Below, one piece after another: positions 1,985 to 8,234 of a DNA stretch of 12,121 nucleotides. A program made the translations under genes and the position numbers. Source of the DNA: Candidatus Woesearchaeota archaeon (GTDB taxonomy: Archaea; Nanobdellota; Nanobdellia; Woesearchaeales; UBA11576); NCBI GenBank assembly GCA_030591125.1, contig JAUVBP010000016.1, positions 1 through 12,121 of the forward strand. The letters are read 5' to 3'. The number at the start of each line of letters is the position of its first letter. Position 1 is the stretch's first letter. The notes beneath the pieces were generated by a model. That model did not search any database, was not told where the DNA came from, and saw only the letters and a list, made by a program, of their open reading frames with translations.

Positions 1985-2491
1985 ATGGCTAAAGGTGATT
2001 CGCTAGAGGATATCCTAGAAGGTGTATTGCACCTGCATTCTGAGACAGGTACTGAAGGGGGATACTGGGCTTTCCAGGACTCCAGGTTCATAGAACAGAA
2101 TACAACACGTCATGCCTGCAAAGGGTGTGGATTGTATTGGGATAAAAGCATGAGCAGTTCTATGCCTGAGAATCCTGACTATGAACGTCCTGAAGGATGG
2201 CCTGAATTCTGTGTTCCTGAGGAGCATGAATTTGAGTTAGTTTCTAAAGAATCCTGGTCTTATGAAGGGTTAAAGTATCTCAACGATGGGGATAAGCTGA
2301 CAATATATCATCCTGACACAGGTGATGAAGTGTGGTCTGGTGTTATAGATCTTGAACAGCATGACCTGTTCACAGAAGATGCGAGAGGATACTGGATACA
2401 CGCAGACCAGAAAGGCATCGACAGGGATGAATGGGCAGAATATTTCTTTGAGAAGTATCCGGCTAAGCTGGAGCCGTTGAAGAAAATCTGA
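1985..2491 (+). CDS. Uncharacterised acidic protein with a Cys/His cluster (168 aa)
   Basis: I do not recognise a named domain. The protein is acidic and soluble, with no signal peptide or membrane segment. Residues about 42-75 carry a possible metal site: HACKGCG gives a CxxC pair, and FCVPEEHEFE about 25 residues later offers another Cys and His. The C-terminal half has a pattern that looks conserved (WSYEGLKYLNDGDKLTIY, then VWSGVIDL, then GYWIHADQKGIDRDEW, ending in FFEKYPAKLEPL), suggesting a compact beta-rich domain. Similar strings seem familiar to me from uncharacterised archaeal and bacterial proteins, but I cannot name the family. A TATA box sits about 24 bases upstream, and the 146-aa gene follows after 12 bases, so the two are probably one transcript. 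It opens the accessory island behind the permease. Confidence 0.8.
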   Translation: MAKGDSLEDILEGVLHLHSETGTEGGYWAFQDSRFIEQNTTRHACKGCGLYWDKSMSSSMPENPDYERPEGWPEFCVPEEHEFELVSKESWSYEGLKYLNDGDKLTIYHPDTGDEVWSGVIDLEQHDLFTEDARGYWIHADQKGIDRDEWAEYFFEKYPAKLEPLKKI

Positions 2492-2503
2492 AAGGTAACC
2501 AAG

Positions 2504-2944
2504 ATGTCTGAAAATAATAAGATTGATGAACTTGAGCGACGAGTTGCGCGACTTGAGCACGACTCCTACCAAGGGAGAGTAAGCAATCTTCAGGAAGGAG
2601 TCACGTATAATGGATGTTCACCATCAGCAGAGGTTCCTTCAAAGGACAAAGCAGAACAAGCCAATACACGCATTGAACAAATCATCAGAAAACTTAGGGA
2701 GGTTGCTAACAACTACCTGTGTGCTGCTGGAAAGGTCATTCCACGTTCTTCGCTACCTTCTACCTATAGACAGGGTATGAGACTGTTCAGGGATCCAAAA
2801 GGTGAATTGATGCGCGTATATGCGCGCGGAGAAATCGACGACAGAGAATACTATCAGCGCAGTCATCAACTCGACAAGGAAGCTGAAGAGCGAGGCTCGC
2901 AATTCATCGAAGTCACAGAACAGGAGACTAGCACACAAAAGTAA
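2504..2944 (+). CDS. Uncharacterised coiled-coil protein (146 aa)
   Basis: Not a recognised family. The N-terminus (residues 5-20, NKIDELERRVARLEHD) has the heptad look of a short coiled coil, suggesting oligomerisation. A Ser/Pro-rich linker follows, then a second helical stretch (about 50-72, ending at a lone Cys) and a charged C-terminus rich in Arg, Glu and Gln. There are no membrane segments and no catalytic motifs. The start codon lies 12 bases after the stop of the 168-aa gene, with AAAGGTAACC between them, where AGGT may act as a weak ribosome binding site. Translation is therefore probably coupled to the upstream gene, and the two may be functional partners. Length, codon pattern and operon position support a real gene, but nothing indicates its role. 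Confidence 0.7.
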   Translation: MSENNKIDELERRVARLEHDSYQGRVSNLQEGVTYNGCSPSAEVPSKDKAEQANTRIEQIIRKLREVANNYLCAAGKVIPRSSLPSTYRQGMRLFRDPKGELMRVYARGEIDDREYYQRSHQLDKEAEERGSQFIEVTEQETSTQK

Positions 2945-2958
2945 AGGGATGGGTGATT

Positions 2959-2965
2959 AAAAAAA
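2959..2965 (-). terminator. Poly-T terminator of the 103-aa gene
   Basis: Seven T residues on the minus strand directly follow the TAG of the 103-aa gene (stop at 2966-2968). A T-tract alone is enough for intrinsic termination in archaea. It lies in the 21-base gap between two convergent genes. Confidence 0.5.
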
Positions 2966-3277
2966 CTACATTTCATACCAAGGTATAAATGCTTGTTTAA
3001 AACGATATTCTGCAAGTTCAGAAGCTTCGTCAGCATTTTTTCGCGCCTCATCTGCAACCTTACGAATCTTACTATAATTCCGACCCTTTCCCAAGGCTAC
3101 ATCAAAAATATTCATTACACTGGCTGAAGTAGCAAGATTGAGTTGTTGATCAGATTCTCTATATGCGCTATAAGCCTGAACCATACGAACTCCGCAGTTT
3201 CCAGTTAAAGCTAATAAACCTATTGCCCCACTTACAAGTGCAGCACTTTTTATCCTGTCAGCCAAATTTTTTGCCAT
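2966..3277 (-). CDS. Small single-pass membrane protein, unknown function (103 aa)
   Basis: One hydrophobic segment (about residues 11-30, SAALVSGAIGLLALTGNCGV) near the N-terminus would anchor the protein or act as an uncleaved signal. The cysteine in TGNC does not fit a lipobox. The remaining 70 residues are polar and mostly helical (KIRKVADEARKNADEASELA), like a short coiled coil on one side of the membrane. The family is not recognised. The ATG at 3277 is supported by a TATA box (3297-3304) at leaderless spacing, and a T7 tract follows the stop. It converges on the 168/146-aa pair and is transcribed alone. A phage-like or cassette-borne small membrane protein is possible but not shown. 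Confidence 0.65.
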   Translation of the reverse strand: MAKNLADRIKSAALVSGAIGLLALTGNCGVRMVQAYSAYRESDQQLNLATSASVMNIFDVALGKGRNYSKIRKVADEARKNADEASELAEYRFKQAFIPWYEM

Positions 3278-3296
3278 AAATATCCAGAAACAACAC

Positions 3297-3304
3297 TATT
3301 TATA
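3297..3304 (-). promoter_or_regulatory. TATA box for the 103-aa gene
   Basis: TATAAATA on the minus strand is centred about 24 bases before the ATG at 3277, with an A-rich stretch just upstream of it. It supports a leaderless start there. Confidence 0.65.
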
Positions 3305-3390
3305 TTTTTTTCGAAGGTTTAAAAGACATATTTAGTTCATTTCCCATAGCTAATCACGCTACATCAGCCCATAAAATATCAGAACCCTGA

Positions 3391-3515
3391 CTTTAAACCA
3401 GTAGTTGAACGCCCACCAAGTCATCTTTAACCAGAAGTTGAAGTCCTGCATAGTGCGAAGTTTAACATGAGGTTGGACGCCAGCGCCCAGGGATGAACTT
3501 ACAGTTCACGTCCGG
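3391..3515. repeat. Tandem array of four palindromic AAC-N5-GTT sites
   Basis: Four sites with AAC, five bases, then GTT lie in tandem: 3396-3406, 3429-3439, 3464-3474 and 3496-3506, at steps of 33, 35 and 32 bases. The right arms read GTTGAACGCC, GTTGAAGTCC, GTTGGACGCC and GTTCACGTCC; the left arms read TTTAAAC, CTTTAAC, GTTTAAC and GATGAAC. Each site is therefore an imperfect inverted repeat around a 5-base centre. The last forms a tight hairpin, TGAACT-TAC-AGTTCA (3494-3508), enclosed by GGACG (3475-3479) and CGTCC (3509-3513). A fifth site lies 1.5 kb away at 4984-4994. The arms match the invariant AAC and GTT of integron core sites, but a full attC is not present; iterons or operators are alternatives. 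Confidence 0.6.
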
Positions 3516-3732
3516 TCACAAATTCTTATTGTTAATGTACTAATATGCTTTCTTCTATATTAATTCATTGGCCTGACAGCTTGAAATTTTGTATGACAAA
3601 CACGATACAAGATTTAAATATAAGCATATCTTGCGACTTAACGATTACTTTCAGAATAAATAACTAGTTTTCTTATGTTTGAGTCCTTCACAAATGCTGA
3701 GTGATTCATGAGGTGGTGCAAACACCTTTCTG

Positions 3733-4824
3733 CTAATCTGTTCCATATCGAAGATATCCTTTGCCTTCCAACTTAGAATACGGCCTATATTCTGGCCAAT
3801 ACAGGTCACCATTAGCGTTGTATATCGGAAGAAGAAATTCTTCTTTACCCTTATAAGTTTCCAACATCAAAGAAGCGATCTTATTCGCTTTCTTCATCAA
3901 CTTGGTCTTGTCAGTCTCTTCGCAGTACTTGTATTTGTCTTGTTCTCTTAAGTCGTGTTCATCTCTATCACAATCTGAAGAATATTTGTCTGCAAGGTTC
4001 TTTTTCAAGACAAGTTTAACTCGAGAGTCAAGTTCTGATTCTGAGAGTTTTCTTACTGATCTGAATATGACCCCTCTGAAGAACCTTGGCGCCACTCTTG
4101 CATGAAGAACCCATCCATATTCATAATATGCTCTCGCTACACCTGTTGAGTAGTCTCCCTGGTATGCTGCGTATGTATTTGGCTGGAGGATTGGCTGCCA
4201 TTTATCTCCTCTTTTGTACGGGACTTCTTTGAATTTGTCTAGCCTGAACATGATTGCCACAGAGTCTCTAGCATCATGAACCATCCAAGTATATTCATTG
4301 ACGCGAACACTTACATGGTCACGCGCATCATGAACATTTCTGCCTATTATGTTGAACCATACAATGGATTCTCCATGCTGTCTGGCATTTTTTACCCATT
4401 GTTCCTTATTCACGTCTTTTTCGAAATCACCTTCTCCAGTTGTCTCAGGTCCTCTGCCAAGCAGACCATCAGTCAGGATATTCTTTAAAAGCGAAGGTTT
4501 AACCGCAGAAAACGCGGTCCATTCCAAGTTGATATCCTTAGCTTTTCTCCAGATCTTTTCGAGAATGGGTGTTGAAAGACTGTCAATCCCTACAGGTTTT
4601 TCGCTCAAAGTTCCATCTTCCCTTAAGGTCTTGAATCTATTGCGGATATACCAGCCATCTCCCAGAGAATATTTCTTCACTTCAAAACCTGCAGATTCCC
4701 AAGCTTTACGGAATTCAGCGTCACTGTTCAAAAAGATCTCTAAGTCTTCAACGAATATTTTCCAAGGTATATCATTTCGTAAGAAGGCTGCTATGAACGG
4801 ATATTCTTTATCTAGGTGTACCAT
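3733..4824 (-). CDS. Unrecognised 363-aa orphan protein flanked by repeats
   Basis: I cannot assign a family. The protein is soluble, rich in Tyr, Trp, Lys and Asp, with no signal or membrane segment. The hexapeptide VHDARD occurs twice, 18 residues apart (164-169 and 182-187). The order SAVKPSLLKNILTDGLL (about 106-122), VAIMFRLDKF (189-198) and VAPRFFRGVIF (244-254) faintly recalls ADP-ribosyltransferase-like folds, in which an early helix ends in 'ILxxGL' and a late strand precedes 'P..I.GVI', but no catalytic residues can be assigned. The C-terminal 100 residues are highly charged. The ATG at 4824 follows GAGG by 7 bases, with a TATA-like TTATATTA near 4868-4876. The gene is A+T-rich relative to its neighbours and lies between related repeats, which suggests transferred cargo. 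Confidence 0.75.
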   Translation of the reverse strand: MVHLDKEYPFIAAFLRNDIPWKIFVEDLEIFLNSDAEFRKAWESAGFEVKKYSLGDGWYIRNRFKTLREDGTLSEKPVGIDSLSTPILEKIWRKAKDINLEWTAFSAVKPSLLKNILTDGLLGRGPETTGEGDFEKDVNKEQWVKNARQHGESIVWFNIIGRNVHDARDHVSVRVNEYTWMVHDARDSVAIMFRLDKFKEVPYKRGDKWQPILQPNTYAAYQGDYSTGVARAYYEYGWVLHARVAPRFFRGVIFRSVRKLSESELDSRVKLVLKKNLADKYSSDCDRDEHDLREQDKYKYCEETDKTKLMKKANKIASLMLETYKGKEEFLLPIYNANGDLYWPEYRPYSKLEGKGYLRYGTD

Positions 4825-5012: not shown

Positions 5013-5023
5013 TCAACGTCCAG
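4976..5023. repeat. Fifth AAC-N5-GTT site with nested hairpin, partner of the array at 3391-3515
   Basis: AAC-TGCTA-GTT lies at 4984-4994. GTTGAACGCCAGCGCCC (4992-5008) matches 3472-3488 at 16 of 17 bases in the same orientation. CGGACGTGAACTG (4976-4988) is the exact reverse complement of 3502-3514. GGACGT (4977-4982) can pair with ACGTCC (5016-5021), enclosing AACT/AGTT, so a nested hairpin similar to that at 3475-3513 can form. One arm of it runs into the last codons of the displaced ychF end. Confidence 0.65.
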
Positions 5024-5087
5024 TAATTATCTCAACGACATCCCGGTGTTTCAGTTTATGCTCCTTGCCGAAGGTCATCTTTGTCTT
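5013..5087 (-). pseudogene. Displaced, recoded copy of the 3' end of ychF (24 codons plus stop)
   Basis: Read on the minus strand, this encodes KTKMTFGKEHKLKHRDVVEI followed by ITGR and TGA. The intact GTPase ends in the same 24 residues except for R-to-M and V-to-F changes. At DNA level 55 of 75 bases match the true gene end (5640-5714); of the 20 mismatches, 17 are synonymous or within the stop codon. Both copies begin with AAGACAAAG (5079-5087 and 5706-5714), 627 bases apart. The copy starts directly after the TAA of the peptidase gene and is in frame with it, but has no start or TGS domain of its own. It is best explained as the former ychF end, displaced when DNA carrying the peptidase gene and a divergent ychF end entered. 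Confidence 0.85.
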
Positions 5088-5597
5088 TTAAACAATCTTC
5101 TTGAACAAGAATGAGAACCCTTTCTTATCCCCTAATGCAGCATATAGATGTGCAGCAGGCTCGCCAACCAGACAATAGTATATCTTACCGAATAATCCTG
5201 AATAATCTGTATGACCCATCTTGATATGCCCTAATTCATGCCTCAAGAGAGACCTGAACTGACCATTGTAATCTTTCTTCATAAAATTCGGTTCAAAGGG
5301 TAAGAAAATATTCTCACCTAACTCAGACAGACCTCCTGGAGGCAATGCTATCGAGATGCCATATACCCCCTCATCTATCTTTGAAGCGTCACCAACATAT
5401 TCGCGACAATATAGGTATTCAAGAGGCAGTTCAGGTGTGATTAGATCCATGTCCAAATGCTCTAACCCTGCTTTCTTCACTTCCTCGTCAAATATTTCCA
5501 AAATAGTCTCATCAACACACTCAACCATAACGTGTAAATCTCCAAACCTCTCCTCTGCCAACTTGCCGATATCTATAACTCTCTCTCCTGAAACCAT
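5088..5597 (-). CDS. ImmA/IrrE-like zinc metallopeptidase (169 aa)
   Basis: The motif RHELGHIKMGH gives the zinc-binding pair and catalytic glutamate of an HExxH peptidase (H120, E121, H124). GEPAAHLYAAL (145-155) resembles the downstream E-x-x-A helix that supplies the third ligand (E146) in ImmA/IrrE-type enzymes. Those proteins usually cleave a partner repressor, often in mobile elements or stress responses; the target here is unknown and no HTH partner is adjacent. There is no signal peptide or membrane segment, so it should act in the cytosol. The ATG at 5597 lies 42 bases after the ychF stop with no clear TATA box, so it probably shares the ychF transcript. Its stop abuts the displaced ychF end, marking it as the cargo of that insertion. 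Another minimal HExxH family is possible. Confidence 0.75.
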   Translation of the reverse strand: MVSGERVIDIGKLAEERFGDLHVMVECVDETILEIFDEEVKKAGLEHLDMDLITPELPLEYLYCREYVGDASKIDEGVYGISIALPPGGLSELGENIFLPFEPNFMKKDYNGQFRSLLRHELGHIKMGHTDYSGLFGKIYYCLVGEPAAHLYAALGDKKGFSFLFKKIV

Positions 5598-5639
5598 AAT
5601 TAATCTACCCCAAAATGTAACCCGAATATGATAATGAAC

Positions 5640-6839
5640 CTATCTCCCTGTGATTATCTCTACAACATCCCTGTGCTTCAACTTATGTTCTTTTCCGACA
5701 GTCCGCTTTGTCTTGACGTCTATGGCACGGATGAATTTCTTACCCAAGTCTGTGTGTATCTTGAATGCGAAGTCTAGGGCGGTGCTGCCGTCAGGTATCA
5801 GGAAGCAGTCTGGAAGGACGTTGCCGTGCTGGTCCACCAGGTTATTAACCCCGCCAGGAAATATCGCGATGTATTTCAGGAGATTGAAAACAGAATTATC
5901 AAGAACTTCCTGCACACCAGTAGAGCCAAACCTATCAAGCATGTTCGTCTTTATGAAATCAAGGGCTGCTTTCTGCTTTTCATTGAGCTTCTCAGGTTCC
6001 AGCAAGGTGAATGTCTTGGATCCTGGAATATATTCTATCATCTTGTGCTTTGCGGCCTCTCGTAATGCAAGCTCTGACTCTGCAGAGCAGGGAATGATTA
6101 TATAATCAGGAAACTCTTCTTTTACACGTTCATAATTCTTGTCTGCGCCAGGCACATCGATCTTGTTGGCCGCAATTATTATCGGCTTAGTGAGTTTCCT
6201 GAGTTCGACTGCGAGGCGTTTCAGATCCTCTTCCTGCCAGGTGCTCGGCTTCTCAAGATCAAGACCTAATTTATTGATGACATCCTCAGTCATCTCCTCA
6301 GTCACTTTCAGTCCGGAGAGCTGTTTACCAACTGCACTTGCGATGCTTCCTTTCTCCTGCATGACAGTACGGGCGAAACGCTCCCATCCCTTGTTGATTA
6401 TGCCAAGGTACCACATGTCAAGCTCTTCCTCAAGGAACTTCACGTCATTCGCAGGATCATAGCTCAATGGATCGACAGGCTCGCCTTTCTCATTCACACT
6501 ACCGGAGATGTCAATGACATGCACCAGAGCATCAGCCTGTCTCAGGTCATCAAGGAACTGGTTACCCATACCAAGACCCTTATGCGCTCCAGGGACAAGT
6601 CCAGCGACGTCCATGAGATCTACAGGAACAAAACGCTTTCCCCCCAGACAGAAACCTTCACGCGGATTGCATTGCTTGTCGAACTCCTTGTCGACACAGT
6701 CCAGCTTCACGAAACCGACAGCATGGTTCGGCTTTATAGTGGTGAATGGGTAATTCGCTATATCGACATCTGCAAGCGTGGCTGCCTTGAAGAAAGTGCT
6801 CTTTCCACAGCTTGGCTTTCCGACGATTCCGACAAACAT
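5640..6839 (-). CDS. ychF: Archaeal YchF-like GTPase with TGS domain
   Basis: A translation-associated P-loop GTPase of the Obg/YchF group, thought to act with ribosomes or tRNA. Visible motifs: P-loop GKPSCGKST (7-15), switch II DVAGLVPGAHKG (77-88), guanine-specificity NKID (225-228), G5 CSA (251-253), and a C-terminal TGS domain (about 325-399, from FPGGVNNLVDQHG to DVVEIITGR). NKID indicates GTP use, unlike bacterial and eukaryotic YchF/OLA1, which carry NxxE and prefer ATP; the name is kept because archaeal members are commonly labelled this way. Length (399 aa) is normal and complete. AGGT precedes the ATG at 6839 by 5 bases. Its last 25 codons (5640-5714) have a second, displaced copy at 5013-5087, so the present 3' end may be of foreign origin while the protein remains intact. 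Confidence 0.93.
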   Translation of the reverse strand: MFVGIVGKPSCGKSTFFKAATLADVDIANYPFTTIKPNHAVGFVKLDCVDKEFDKQCNPREGFCLGGKRFVPVDLMDVAGLVPGAHKGLGMGNQFLDDLRQADALVHVIDISGSVNEKGEPVDPLSYDPANDVKFLEEELDMWYLGIINKGWERFARTVMQEKGSIASAVGKQLSGLKVTEEMTEDVINKLGLDLEKPSTWQEEDLKRLAVELRKLTKPIIIAANKIDVPGADKNYERVKEEFPDYIIIPCSAESELALREAAKHKMIEYIPGSKTFTLLEPEKLNEKQKAALDFIKTNMLDRFGSTGVQEVLDNSVFNLLKYIAIFPGGVNNLVDQHGNVLPDCFLIPDGSTALDFAFKIHTDLGKKFIRAIDVKTKRTVGKEHKLKHRDVVEIITGR

Positions 6840-6920: not shown

Positions 6921-8234
6921 CTAATTACCTTTAGATACCTTCAGAGCAAACCTGCTGTTCGAGAGCGGAACATAAGGCTTGAATGAGTAATCTCCCTTCG
7001 GCTTCCCAGGTATCTCCATGCAGTCCATACATCTGGCCTCATACACCTCAGTCACATCCTCGTCAGCCTCTTTACTGCCTATTGCAATGTCCTTATCCAG
7101 ATAAGGTGCAGGTGACTTCTGTCCATTGCGGACGATAAGCCTCTGGCTTTCCGTGGCCTTCTGGCCGCAAGCCTCACAATAAGCATACATGACAGATATA
7201 TTATCAGCGATGGTGAGAAGGTCTGCCATCTCACCGAAAGGTTCTATCTTGAAAGTCCTCATCAGCCCGGTCACGTAGAATCGGTATCCCTGATATATCA
7301 TATCCCTGACACCTGCGTATATCCCCTCTATGAACTGCCCTTCATCGATAAAGATGTGACCTACAGGAGATTTCCGATTCATAGAATCCAGTCCATCTAT
7401 CCCCGTCTCACCGCGGATATACCTGATCACATCCGCCATATCACGGACCAGGATCGCAGGTATCGATGCCTTGTGGTTGTTCATGCCGATGACACCTTTA
7501 TCGAACACTCTGTATTCCTTTCCCCTTTCAGAGAACCGTTTATCATTTGACCATTTGAAAACAACATACCTTATCCCTTTCGCATCAAGCTCTTTCATCT
7601 TCTCATACCAAGCAGTGGTCTTGCTGGCATACATGTTACCCACAAAAAGCTCAAGTCCACCTAACCGATCTATGTGCACGTCAGGACGTCCTCTGAAAGA
7701 ATGATGTATCAGGCAACGACGTTCACCTGAACTGCTGAGCTTCTGGCTCCTTGTCGCCCCTAACCTGCACCCCTGCACCATGCAAGGGGCATCCTTCAAT
7801 ATAAAATTGTTAGAGATGGACATTATCTGAGGCATGAAGTTGAACGGCTTCCCTTCCCAGTCAAGATTATGTCCTGCGACGTACACCTTTCGGTTACTCA
7901 ACACCAATGCATGGAGCAGATCCACTATCTTAGGATCCTCAAAGAAATTTATCCCAGAAATGACGACCGCTTCCGTGTCCTTAGTGACCTGCTTTGCGAT
8001 CAGATCAGGATCATCAGTCTCCAGTGCAGGATATCCTGCAATCTTACCAGGATTCGATATGTCATCCCGCGGGTGTTTAGCGACGACAATATTGCTTGAT
8101 TCGCCCTTGGCAGGATCCCAGATTATCCCGTGCGCTGAATTCAACAGCCTCTCAATCTCAGTTGTCTTGCCTGAAAGATTAGGTCCTGTTATCGTTATCA
8201 ATTCACCGTGTCTTGAACCCCTAAAAGAAAGCAT
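6921..8234 (-). CDS. tdk: Two-domain (tandem duplicated) thymidine kinase
   Basis: Type II thymidine kinase phosphorylates thymidine for dTTP salvage in the cytosol and is usually about 190-210 aa; this protein is 437 aa and holds two copies. Domain 1 (about 10-180): P-loop GPNLSGKTT (17-25), AGHNLDWEGKPF (120-131), and a reduced cysteine pair CMVQGC (151-156). The place of the catalytic DExQF motif reads SGINF (93-97). Domain 2 (about 192-410): P-loop position GNMYASKTT (199-207) has Ser for the final Gly, but DEGQF is intact (297-301), followed by VTGLMRTFKIEPF and zinc cysteines C353, C356, C402, C405. The domains thus appear complementary. Start: AAGGAGGG lies 5 bases before the ATG, the strongest ribosome binding site in the window. 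Divergent from the 199-aa gene. Confidence 0.88.
   Translation of the reverse strand: MLSFRGSRHGELITITGPNLSGKTTEIERLLNSAHGIIWDPAKGESSNIVVAKHPRDDISNPGKIAGYPALETDDPDLIAKQVTKDTEAVVISGINFFEDPKIVDLLHALVLSNRKVYVAGHNLDWEGKPFNFMPQIMSISNNFILKDAPCMVQGCRLGATRSQKLSSSGERRCLIHHSFRGRPDVHIDRLGGLELFVGNMYASKTTAWYEKMKELDAKGIRYVVFKWSNDKRFSERGKEYRVFDKGVIGMNNHKASIPAILVRDMADVIRYIRGETGIDGLDSMNRKSPVGHIFIDEGQFIEGIYAGVRDMIYQGYRFYVTGLMRTFKIEPFGEMADLLTIADNISVMYAYCEACGQKATESQRLIVRNGQKSPAPYLDKDIAIGSKEADEDVTEVYEARCMDCMEIPGKPKGDYSFKPYVPLSNSRFALKVSKGN

Follow-up and report, generated by a model that had tools for sequence, protein, structure and literature searches.

Paired 3′ ends of ychF around small inserts in archaeal genomes suggest integration with a replacement gene end

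Why should the end of a conserved gene stand twice on one contig, once within the gene and once beyond another reading frame? The contig that raises this question, referred to here as the window, was analysed over its whole length of 12,121 bases and comes from a Candidatus Woesearchaeota genome of 1.31 Mb in 226 contigs, 67% complete. The original prediction held that the last 24 codons and the stop codon of ychF recur 627 nt away, directly after the stop of a zinc peptidase gene, and that an inserted gene end plus cargo had brought this about. The repeat lies exactly where it had been placed (Table 1), and the identities given for it, 22 of 24 amino acids and 55 of 75 nucleotides, are confirmed. 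The same is true of the 17 mismatches out of 20 said to be synonymous or in the stop codon: 15 are synonymous and two fall in the stop, while the other three are non-synonymous (R to M through two bases, V to F through one). The TAA of the frame at 5088-5597 does stand immediately before AAGACAAAG.

Similarity between the two tails starts sharply at AAGACAAAG, the preceding 36 nt being only 25% identical, and ends with the stop codons. When the tail is compared with all six translated frames of the window, ungapped BLOSUM62 scoring gives the displaced copy 112 and the runner-up position 29, and chance is therefore excluded. Scans of the window for Rfam families, at the gathering threshold, and for tRNA genes gave no matches. 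The displaced tail is in frame with the 169-residue reading frame across the TAA of the latter (window 5085-5093); read-through of this codon would append a ychF end to the encoded protein, an arrangement that may be coincidence (one in three).

Table 1. Positions of ychF, its two tails and neighbouring features in the window
Feature	Position	Strand	Description
ychF	5640..6839	-	399 aa, archaeal Obg-like GTPase with C-terminal TGS domain; Pfam YGR210-like_G4, MMR_HSR1, TGS
In-gene tail	5640..5714	-	24 codons and TAG of ychF; core and putative recoded replacement end
Displaced tail	5013..5087	-	24 codons and TGA; probable native end of ychF
Core copy 1, AAGACAAAG (codons KTK)	5706..5714	-	At -72 to -64 from the stop; no longer exact match joins the two tails
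Core copy 2, AAGACAAAG	5079..5087	-	Exact match to core copy 1
Putative insert	5088..5714	-	627-nt unit between the core copies: core, recoded tail, spacer, ORF; repeat spacing 627
Cargo ORF	5088..5597	-	Orphan, 169 aa, HExxH motif (HELGHIKMGH), ends at core
Orphan ORF	3733..4824	-	363 aa, past the displaced tail, where the genus natively has a different neighbour; matches itself alone among 5.8 billion proteins

The label of zinc peptidase fared less well. The motif is present, but the Pfam matches of the 169-residue protein are below cut-off (M48, E 0.056, 13.7 bits against 20.3; phage metallopeptidase, E 0.15, 12.6 bits against 23.7) and those in PHROGs are weak (E 0.037 and 0.24). Its only match among 5.8 billion proteins is to itself, it is present in one of the 352 genomes of the order, its own, and a single-sequence fold model has a pLDDT of 36 and is useless.

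The arrangement is not confined to the window. A search with the tail over the 352 genomes of the order gave two or more matches in ten, and in four of these (the genome of the window, G007, G088 and G218) the second match is on the same strand and shortly downstream of ychF. Further matches in G012, G234, G324 and G334 are other full-length ychF-like frames, of which these genomes, like G405, hold two or more, and those in G219 and G023 are at contig ends. Two extra cases are Candidatus Pacearchaeota Meg22_810_Bin_162 (L073) and AlinenSedimentsD2_bin-1345 (L106), the latter labelled Euryarchaeota. When ychF ends were compared with their own surroundings on both strands, these six loci scored 83-120 against a background of 41 or less.

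The frequency of such copies was assessed in 181 loci, where up to 8 kb downstream was scanned for 165 distinct archaeal ychF ends and for the ends of 1520 other ORFs. A tail-only copy, in register and on the same strand, was called by eye on the scored list for six of the 165 ychF ends and for none of the 1520 others (Fisher p = 8e-7); leaving out the window, the count is five of 164 (p = 8e-6). Other scores of 67-73 arose from tandem paralogues or, once, from a match without an in-register stop, and scores of 50 or less from paralogues, low-complexity proteins and matches without an in-register stop. Several of the loci had been fetched on account of two matches. Among the 160 not so chosen, 80 of them named and 80 taken from the order search after removal of two-match genomes, a bias against finding more pairs, the copy is present at two of 150 ychF ends and none of 1401 other ends (p = 0.009).

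Twenty further loci, compared with the ychF C-terminus alone, added no pair; they did show an orphan relic of the tail in G358. Among 371 genomes of the phylum, re-examination of 22 two-match genomes did not reveal a further pair on one contig; the second matches mostly lie inside long frames of other genes, the exceptions being G358 (the orphan relic), G405 (two full genes) and G406 (a contig break). A control with the C-terminus of PGK gave two matches in five of 352 genomes; the second matches were not among the matches listed, where the shortest frame is 72 aa. We left G219, G023 and G406 uncounted as cases, since their contigs break in the ychF tail. These breaks (L034/L035 in G219, L036/L217 in G023, L213/L214 in G406) look like the effect of a repeated tail or a polymorphic site. 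The tail of G219 has cargo behind it, a MazE/ParE pair included, and then the gene found past the displaced tail in G218; the displaced tail itself is a weak relic, and the genes after the ychF tail are presumably deaminase-like and Nudix-like, judging by sequence. The orphan tail of G358 (L215:3776-3871; G358:C9) has an internal stop, stands on another contig than the ychF of that genome, is flanked by weakly HIT-like and weakly PIN-like genes and is perhaps a decayed displaced tail.

In all six genomes the 3′ end of ychF is doubled in direct orientation on either side of the insert, ychF remains an open frame as far as its stop codon, and its in-gene tail is not identical to the displaced copy. 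The tails are 1368 nt apart in G007, 627 in the window, 596 in G218, 255 in L073, 231 in G088 and 143 in L106; the last three pairs have no recognisable gene between them. Their longest exact runs are 75 nt in G007, 41 in G088, 32 in G218, 22 in L106, 9 in the window and 6 in L073. The cores of the window, L106, G088 and G007 all span -71 to -64 from the stop, at the end of the KTK codons. This is not the situation in G218, where the core is at -57 to -26 and lacks the common 8 nt, nor in L073, which is without an exact run above 6 nt.

Beyond the core the window, L106 and G007 show mainly synonymous codon differences, which holds less for G088 and not for G218 (synonymous to non-synonymous codons over the last 24: 14:2, 13:2, 5:1, 3:2 and 2:7, respectively). 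The ratio for L073 is 9:10, with nine of the ten non-synonymous codons preceding the 15 common codons and a ratio of nine to one within those 15. In G088 the displaced copy is recoded to the left of the core too, as a reciprocal crossover would lead one to expect and a one-sided duplication would not; with recoding on both sides, homology-assisted duplication of the one-sided kind was set back as an explanation. Other cargo between a ychF end and a second end, which the original prediction had proposed to look for in relatives, was found twice. That of G007 consists of a nucleotidyltransferase (NTase) and a weakly HEPN-like protein and that of G218 of a UPF0175 protein, which we take to be antitoxin-like, and a 63-residue frame without matches. 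The cargo of G007 and G218 is thus of a mobile type; that of the window is an orphan.

Which tail is the native one? G009, of the same genus as G007, has a single tail followed by the sequence that in G007 is found past the displaced tail, and thus presents the empty site. In G088 the gene past the displaced tail sits 18-45 nt after ychF in four of the best six of 19 matches, and in G218 the genes past it follow ychF in several relatives. The gene about 0.3 kb past the displaced tail of L073, presumably Alba-like from its sequence, is found 0.8-1.3 kb after ychF in four loci. By synteny the displaced tail reads as native in G007, G088 and G218, the case of L073 being less tight.

Taken together, the paired ends, the core, the recoding, the empty site and the recurrence fit an integration event in which incoming DNA enters ychF at its 3′ end and brings a substitute for that end. 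We consider it reasonably probable that a small non-autonomous element entered ychF there through reciprocal crossover, most likely site-specific, at the KTK codons (AAGACAAAG). Such an element would bring a copy of the core and, behind it, a recoded ychF end of its own. Reciprocal crossover at AAGACAAAG, an att-like core in the ychF 3′ end, would then produce a ychF made up of host codons as far as the core and the last codons of the element, and would strand the original end of the host gene beyond the cargo. A circular intermediate would be involved, and the recombinase may have been supplied in trans or since lost.

The strongest competitor, unlikely in our judgement though of some weight, is homologous or homology-assisted recombination with a foreign fragment or circle bearing a ychF end and a downstream gene, in which no dedicated site or recombinase takes part and the survivors are those that keep ychF whole. 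Core lengths do vary, four cases have exact cores of 22-75 nt that such recombination could use, and a recombinase was recognised in no insert. The core of the window, however, is only 9 nt, four cores overlap at an identical 8 nt, and among the scanned ends the effect is confined to ychF (none of the 1520 others). Furthermore, the cargo ORF of the window, found in no other genome of the order, is thereby no usual neighbour of ychF there.

Returning to insertion of an element at the core, we asked how far the polarity applies to the window itself. Among 191 tails the displaced tail is nearest to that of G001 (59/72; next relative 53/72), and the body of ychF is also nearest to G001. The original prediction stands in so far as a gene end plus cargo was inserted at the shared core; the foreign origin that it assigned to the in-gene tail is weaker. 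Identity of the in-gene tail to G001 is 0.778 against a mean of 0.770 for the ychF body, so that it is not more diverged from G001 or G002 than the rest of the gene, and of the two tails it is the in-gene one to which G002 is slightly nearer (56/72, against 53/72 for the displaced one). Codon usage makes the displaced tail the more host-like in the window (log L -23.7 against -31.0). It is not a reliable guide to polarity, because it is right for G218 and wrong for G007 and G088, two of the three cases fixed by synteny.

Three genomes of the same genus have ychF proteins 79-83% identical to that of the window. A convergent gene of 739 aa stands directly after ychF in G001, G002, G003, G005 and G008 and 0.8 kb downstream in the other orientation in G004; G007 and G009 have another neighbour. 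Past the displaced tail of the window this gene is missing; the orthologue lies on a different contig, whose end truncates it. The window therefore has further DNA, outside the 627-nt unit, that is non-native or rearranged. The 5 kb past the displaced tail are not syntenic with the three same-genus genomes. Because this DNA is not the native neighbourhood of the genus, the polarity in the window is probable and not proved: the displaced tail is probably native and the last 24 codons of ychF are probably borne by the element. The empty site that the original prediction sought in relatives is supplied by G009 for the sister case G007, not by the flank of the window. None of the relatives carries the in-gene version of the tail.

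The same flank bears on a second alternative, a tandem array of elements, in which the displaced tail at 5013-5087 would derive from an older element and the native end would lie further out or on another contig. We regard this as rather improbable. The lack of synteny over 5 kb, the position of the native neighbour at the end of another contig and the orphan nature of the ORF at 3733-4824 would suit it; against this, a third tail was looked for in the window and not found, and the displaced tail shares its nearest relative, G001, with the ychF body.

Less probable still is that the last 24 codons are all that is left of a decayed second ychF, whether tandem or xenologous. Upstream of the displaced tail the window is without ychF sequence, the tail-only form occurs six times, and the native neighbour follows a single ychF end in G009 and in the relatives of G088 and G218. 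Mainly synonymous differences such as those in the window are also not expected of a decaying remnant, even though G012, G234, G324 and G334 hold two or more full ychF-like genes and the relic in G358, with its internal stop and its separate contig, would be in keeping with such decay. A chimera of metagenome assembly, for which the fragmented and 67%-complete assembly might speak, is very improbable given an exact run of 9 nt, assembler k-mers usually being longer than this, and the same arrangement in five other genomes.

An insertion of the kind that we favour calls attention to the recombinase. Between the tails of the six pairs no recombinase gene was recognised among the ORFs, the larger of which were compared with Pfam. 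The 627-nt unit holds one ORF, that of 169 aa, and the recombinase that defines integrative elements was not recognised in it; for this reason we describe it as working like a 3′-end integrative element and do not file it as an intact one. The inserts may be either worn-down remnants or true cassettes. The tyrosine recombinase family PF00589 has no match in the window's own genome, 67% complete, so that there is no integron integrase in the assembled part; it has matches in ten of 11 other genomes tested, one of them on the ychF contig of G088 about 17 kb away and outside the tail pair. The casposon hallmarks, a Cas1-like casposase and a family-B polymerase, were both without a match in the 627-nt unit.

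A mobile carrier of the tail was sought in virus, phage and plasmid collections, and no copy was found in them. In viral_contigs, alignments of full ychF and of the tail gave 13 and 42 pattern matches, none of which was confirmed, and a degenerate DNA pattern for the tail found nothing. The tail had no tblastn match in phages, and two matches in plasmids, at E 6-9, were put down to chance. Small proteins made up of an orphan tail were also sought, with nine entries returned; seven of these, judged by sequence, seem to be ychF ends truncated at a contig end or by a late start. P0009 has an unrelated N-terminus but comes from a contig of 518 bases, and P0004 begins VYKRQ, a sequencing-adapter artefact; neither was accepted.

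How does the ychF site compare with known systems? Prophage e14, which together with phage 21 is a close parallel, has many genes, an integrase among them, and the two icd ends at e14 reportedly differ mainly by synonymous changes. The ychF pairs are unlike e14 in being 0.14-1.4 kb apart, in containing no recognised recombinase and in having an archaeal host and ychF as the target. The likeness is that a protein gene receives its 3′ end from the element and its original end survives as a displaced fragment, in the excerpted account of e14 in E. coli a 163-bp icd end (PMC6379469); a gene end supplied by the newcomer had thus been described before.

In the available portion of a survey of thaumarchaeal elements, 14 of 68 mapped elements sit in the 3′ ends of protein genes, and in the case of NitEve-E2 the frame is restored after replacement of 8 nt, the stop among them, the predicted att site being 13 bp long. 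The classes given are proviruses, casposons, IS-like, conjugative and cryptic elements. By contrast with the ychF pairs, the targets named in that portion do not include ychF, and a long recoded tail is not described there. Integron gene cassettes are one- or two-gene units without a recombinase, often of toxin-antitoxin type. The inserts at ychF differ from them in having their site inside a conserved protein gene, and we know of no integron integrase for them. They resemble such cassettes in being small units without a recombinase. Integrons have been described from archaea too (PMC9668308). For genomic islands in tRNA genes, the corresponding extract describes a regenerated target and a displaced fragment that mark the two island ends, much as here, whereas those islands enter tRNA or tmRNA genes through the action of tyrosine integrases (Islander; PMC4383910).

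Among the literature matches listed, by title and the start of the abstract, insertions in the 3′ end of archaeal ychF were not found, and none of those on integrases and attachment sites uses the word Woesearchaeota in these parts of the text; one partial source places a pneumococcal satellite prophage upstream of ychF. The mobile elements of Woesearchaeales and other DPANN archaea seem to be little described. What is new against the precedents is the ychF target, the small size and the lack of a recognised recombinase; 3′-end integration with a replacement end was already known. The recurrent site in ychF points to a landing place for mobile DNA in tiny uncultured archaea, and the recurrent paired ends to a mobile pool that carries ychF ends. 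The end of a conserved gene may thus be swapped without loss of the protein, and paired native and replacement ends offer a simple sequence test for insertions in metagenomes.

We would entertain only tentatively, and rather doubt, a broader reading in which the 3′ ends of ychF in DPANN archaea, and in at least one genome labelled Euryarchaeota, are a dock for minimal recombinase-less cassettes that are moved in trans and exchanged between species. Such cassettes would be of 0.14-1.4 kb and would carry nothing, one ORF or a toxin-antitoxin-like pair, together with a recoded ychF end doubling as the attachment site; insertion would renew the tail of the GTPase, and recoding would prevent the cargo from being recombined away.

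Some minor features of the loci may be recorded. At 1985-4824 the window has genes of 168, 146, 103 and 363 aa, none with a Pfam family over cut-off, and this stretch is possibly a larger island. An amino-acid permease and a methyltransferase domain share one open frame at 1-1917, and the 437-residue protein encoded at 6921-8234 has a thymidine kinase domain in its C-terminal half and a long N-terminal extension. Just past the in-gene ychF stop of G007 (L009:2733-2943) there are nested inverted repeats, one of 14 nt that is perfect and one of 20 nt at 85%, which resemble a small palindromic element.
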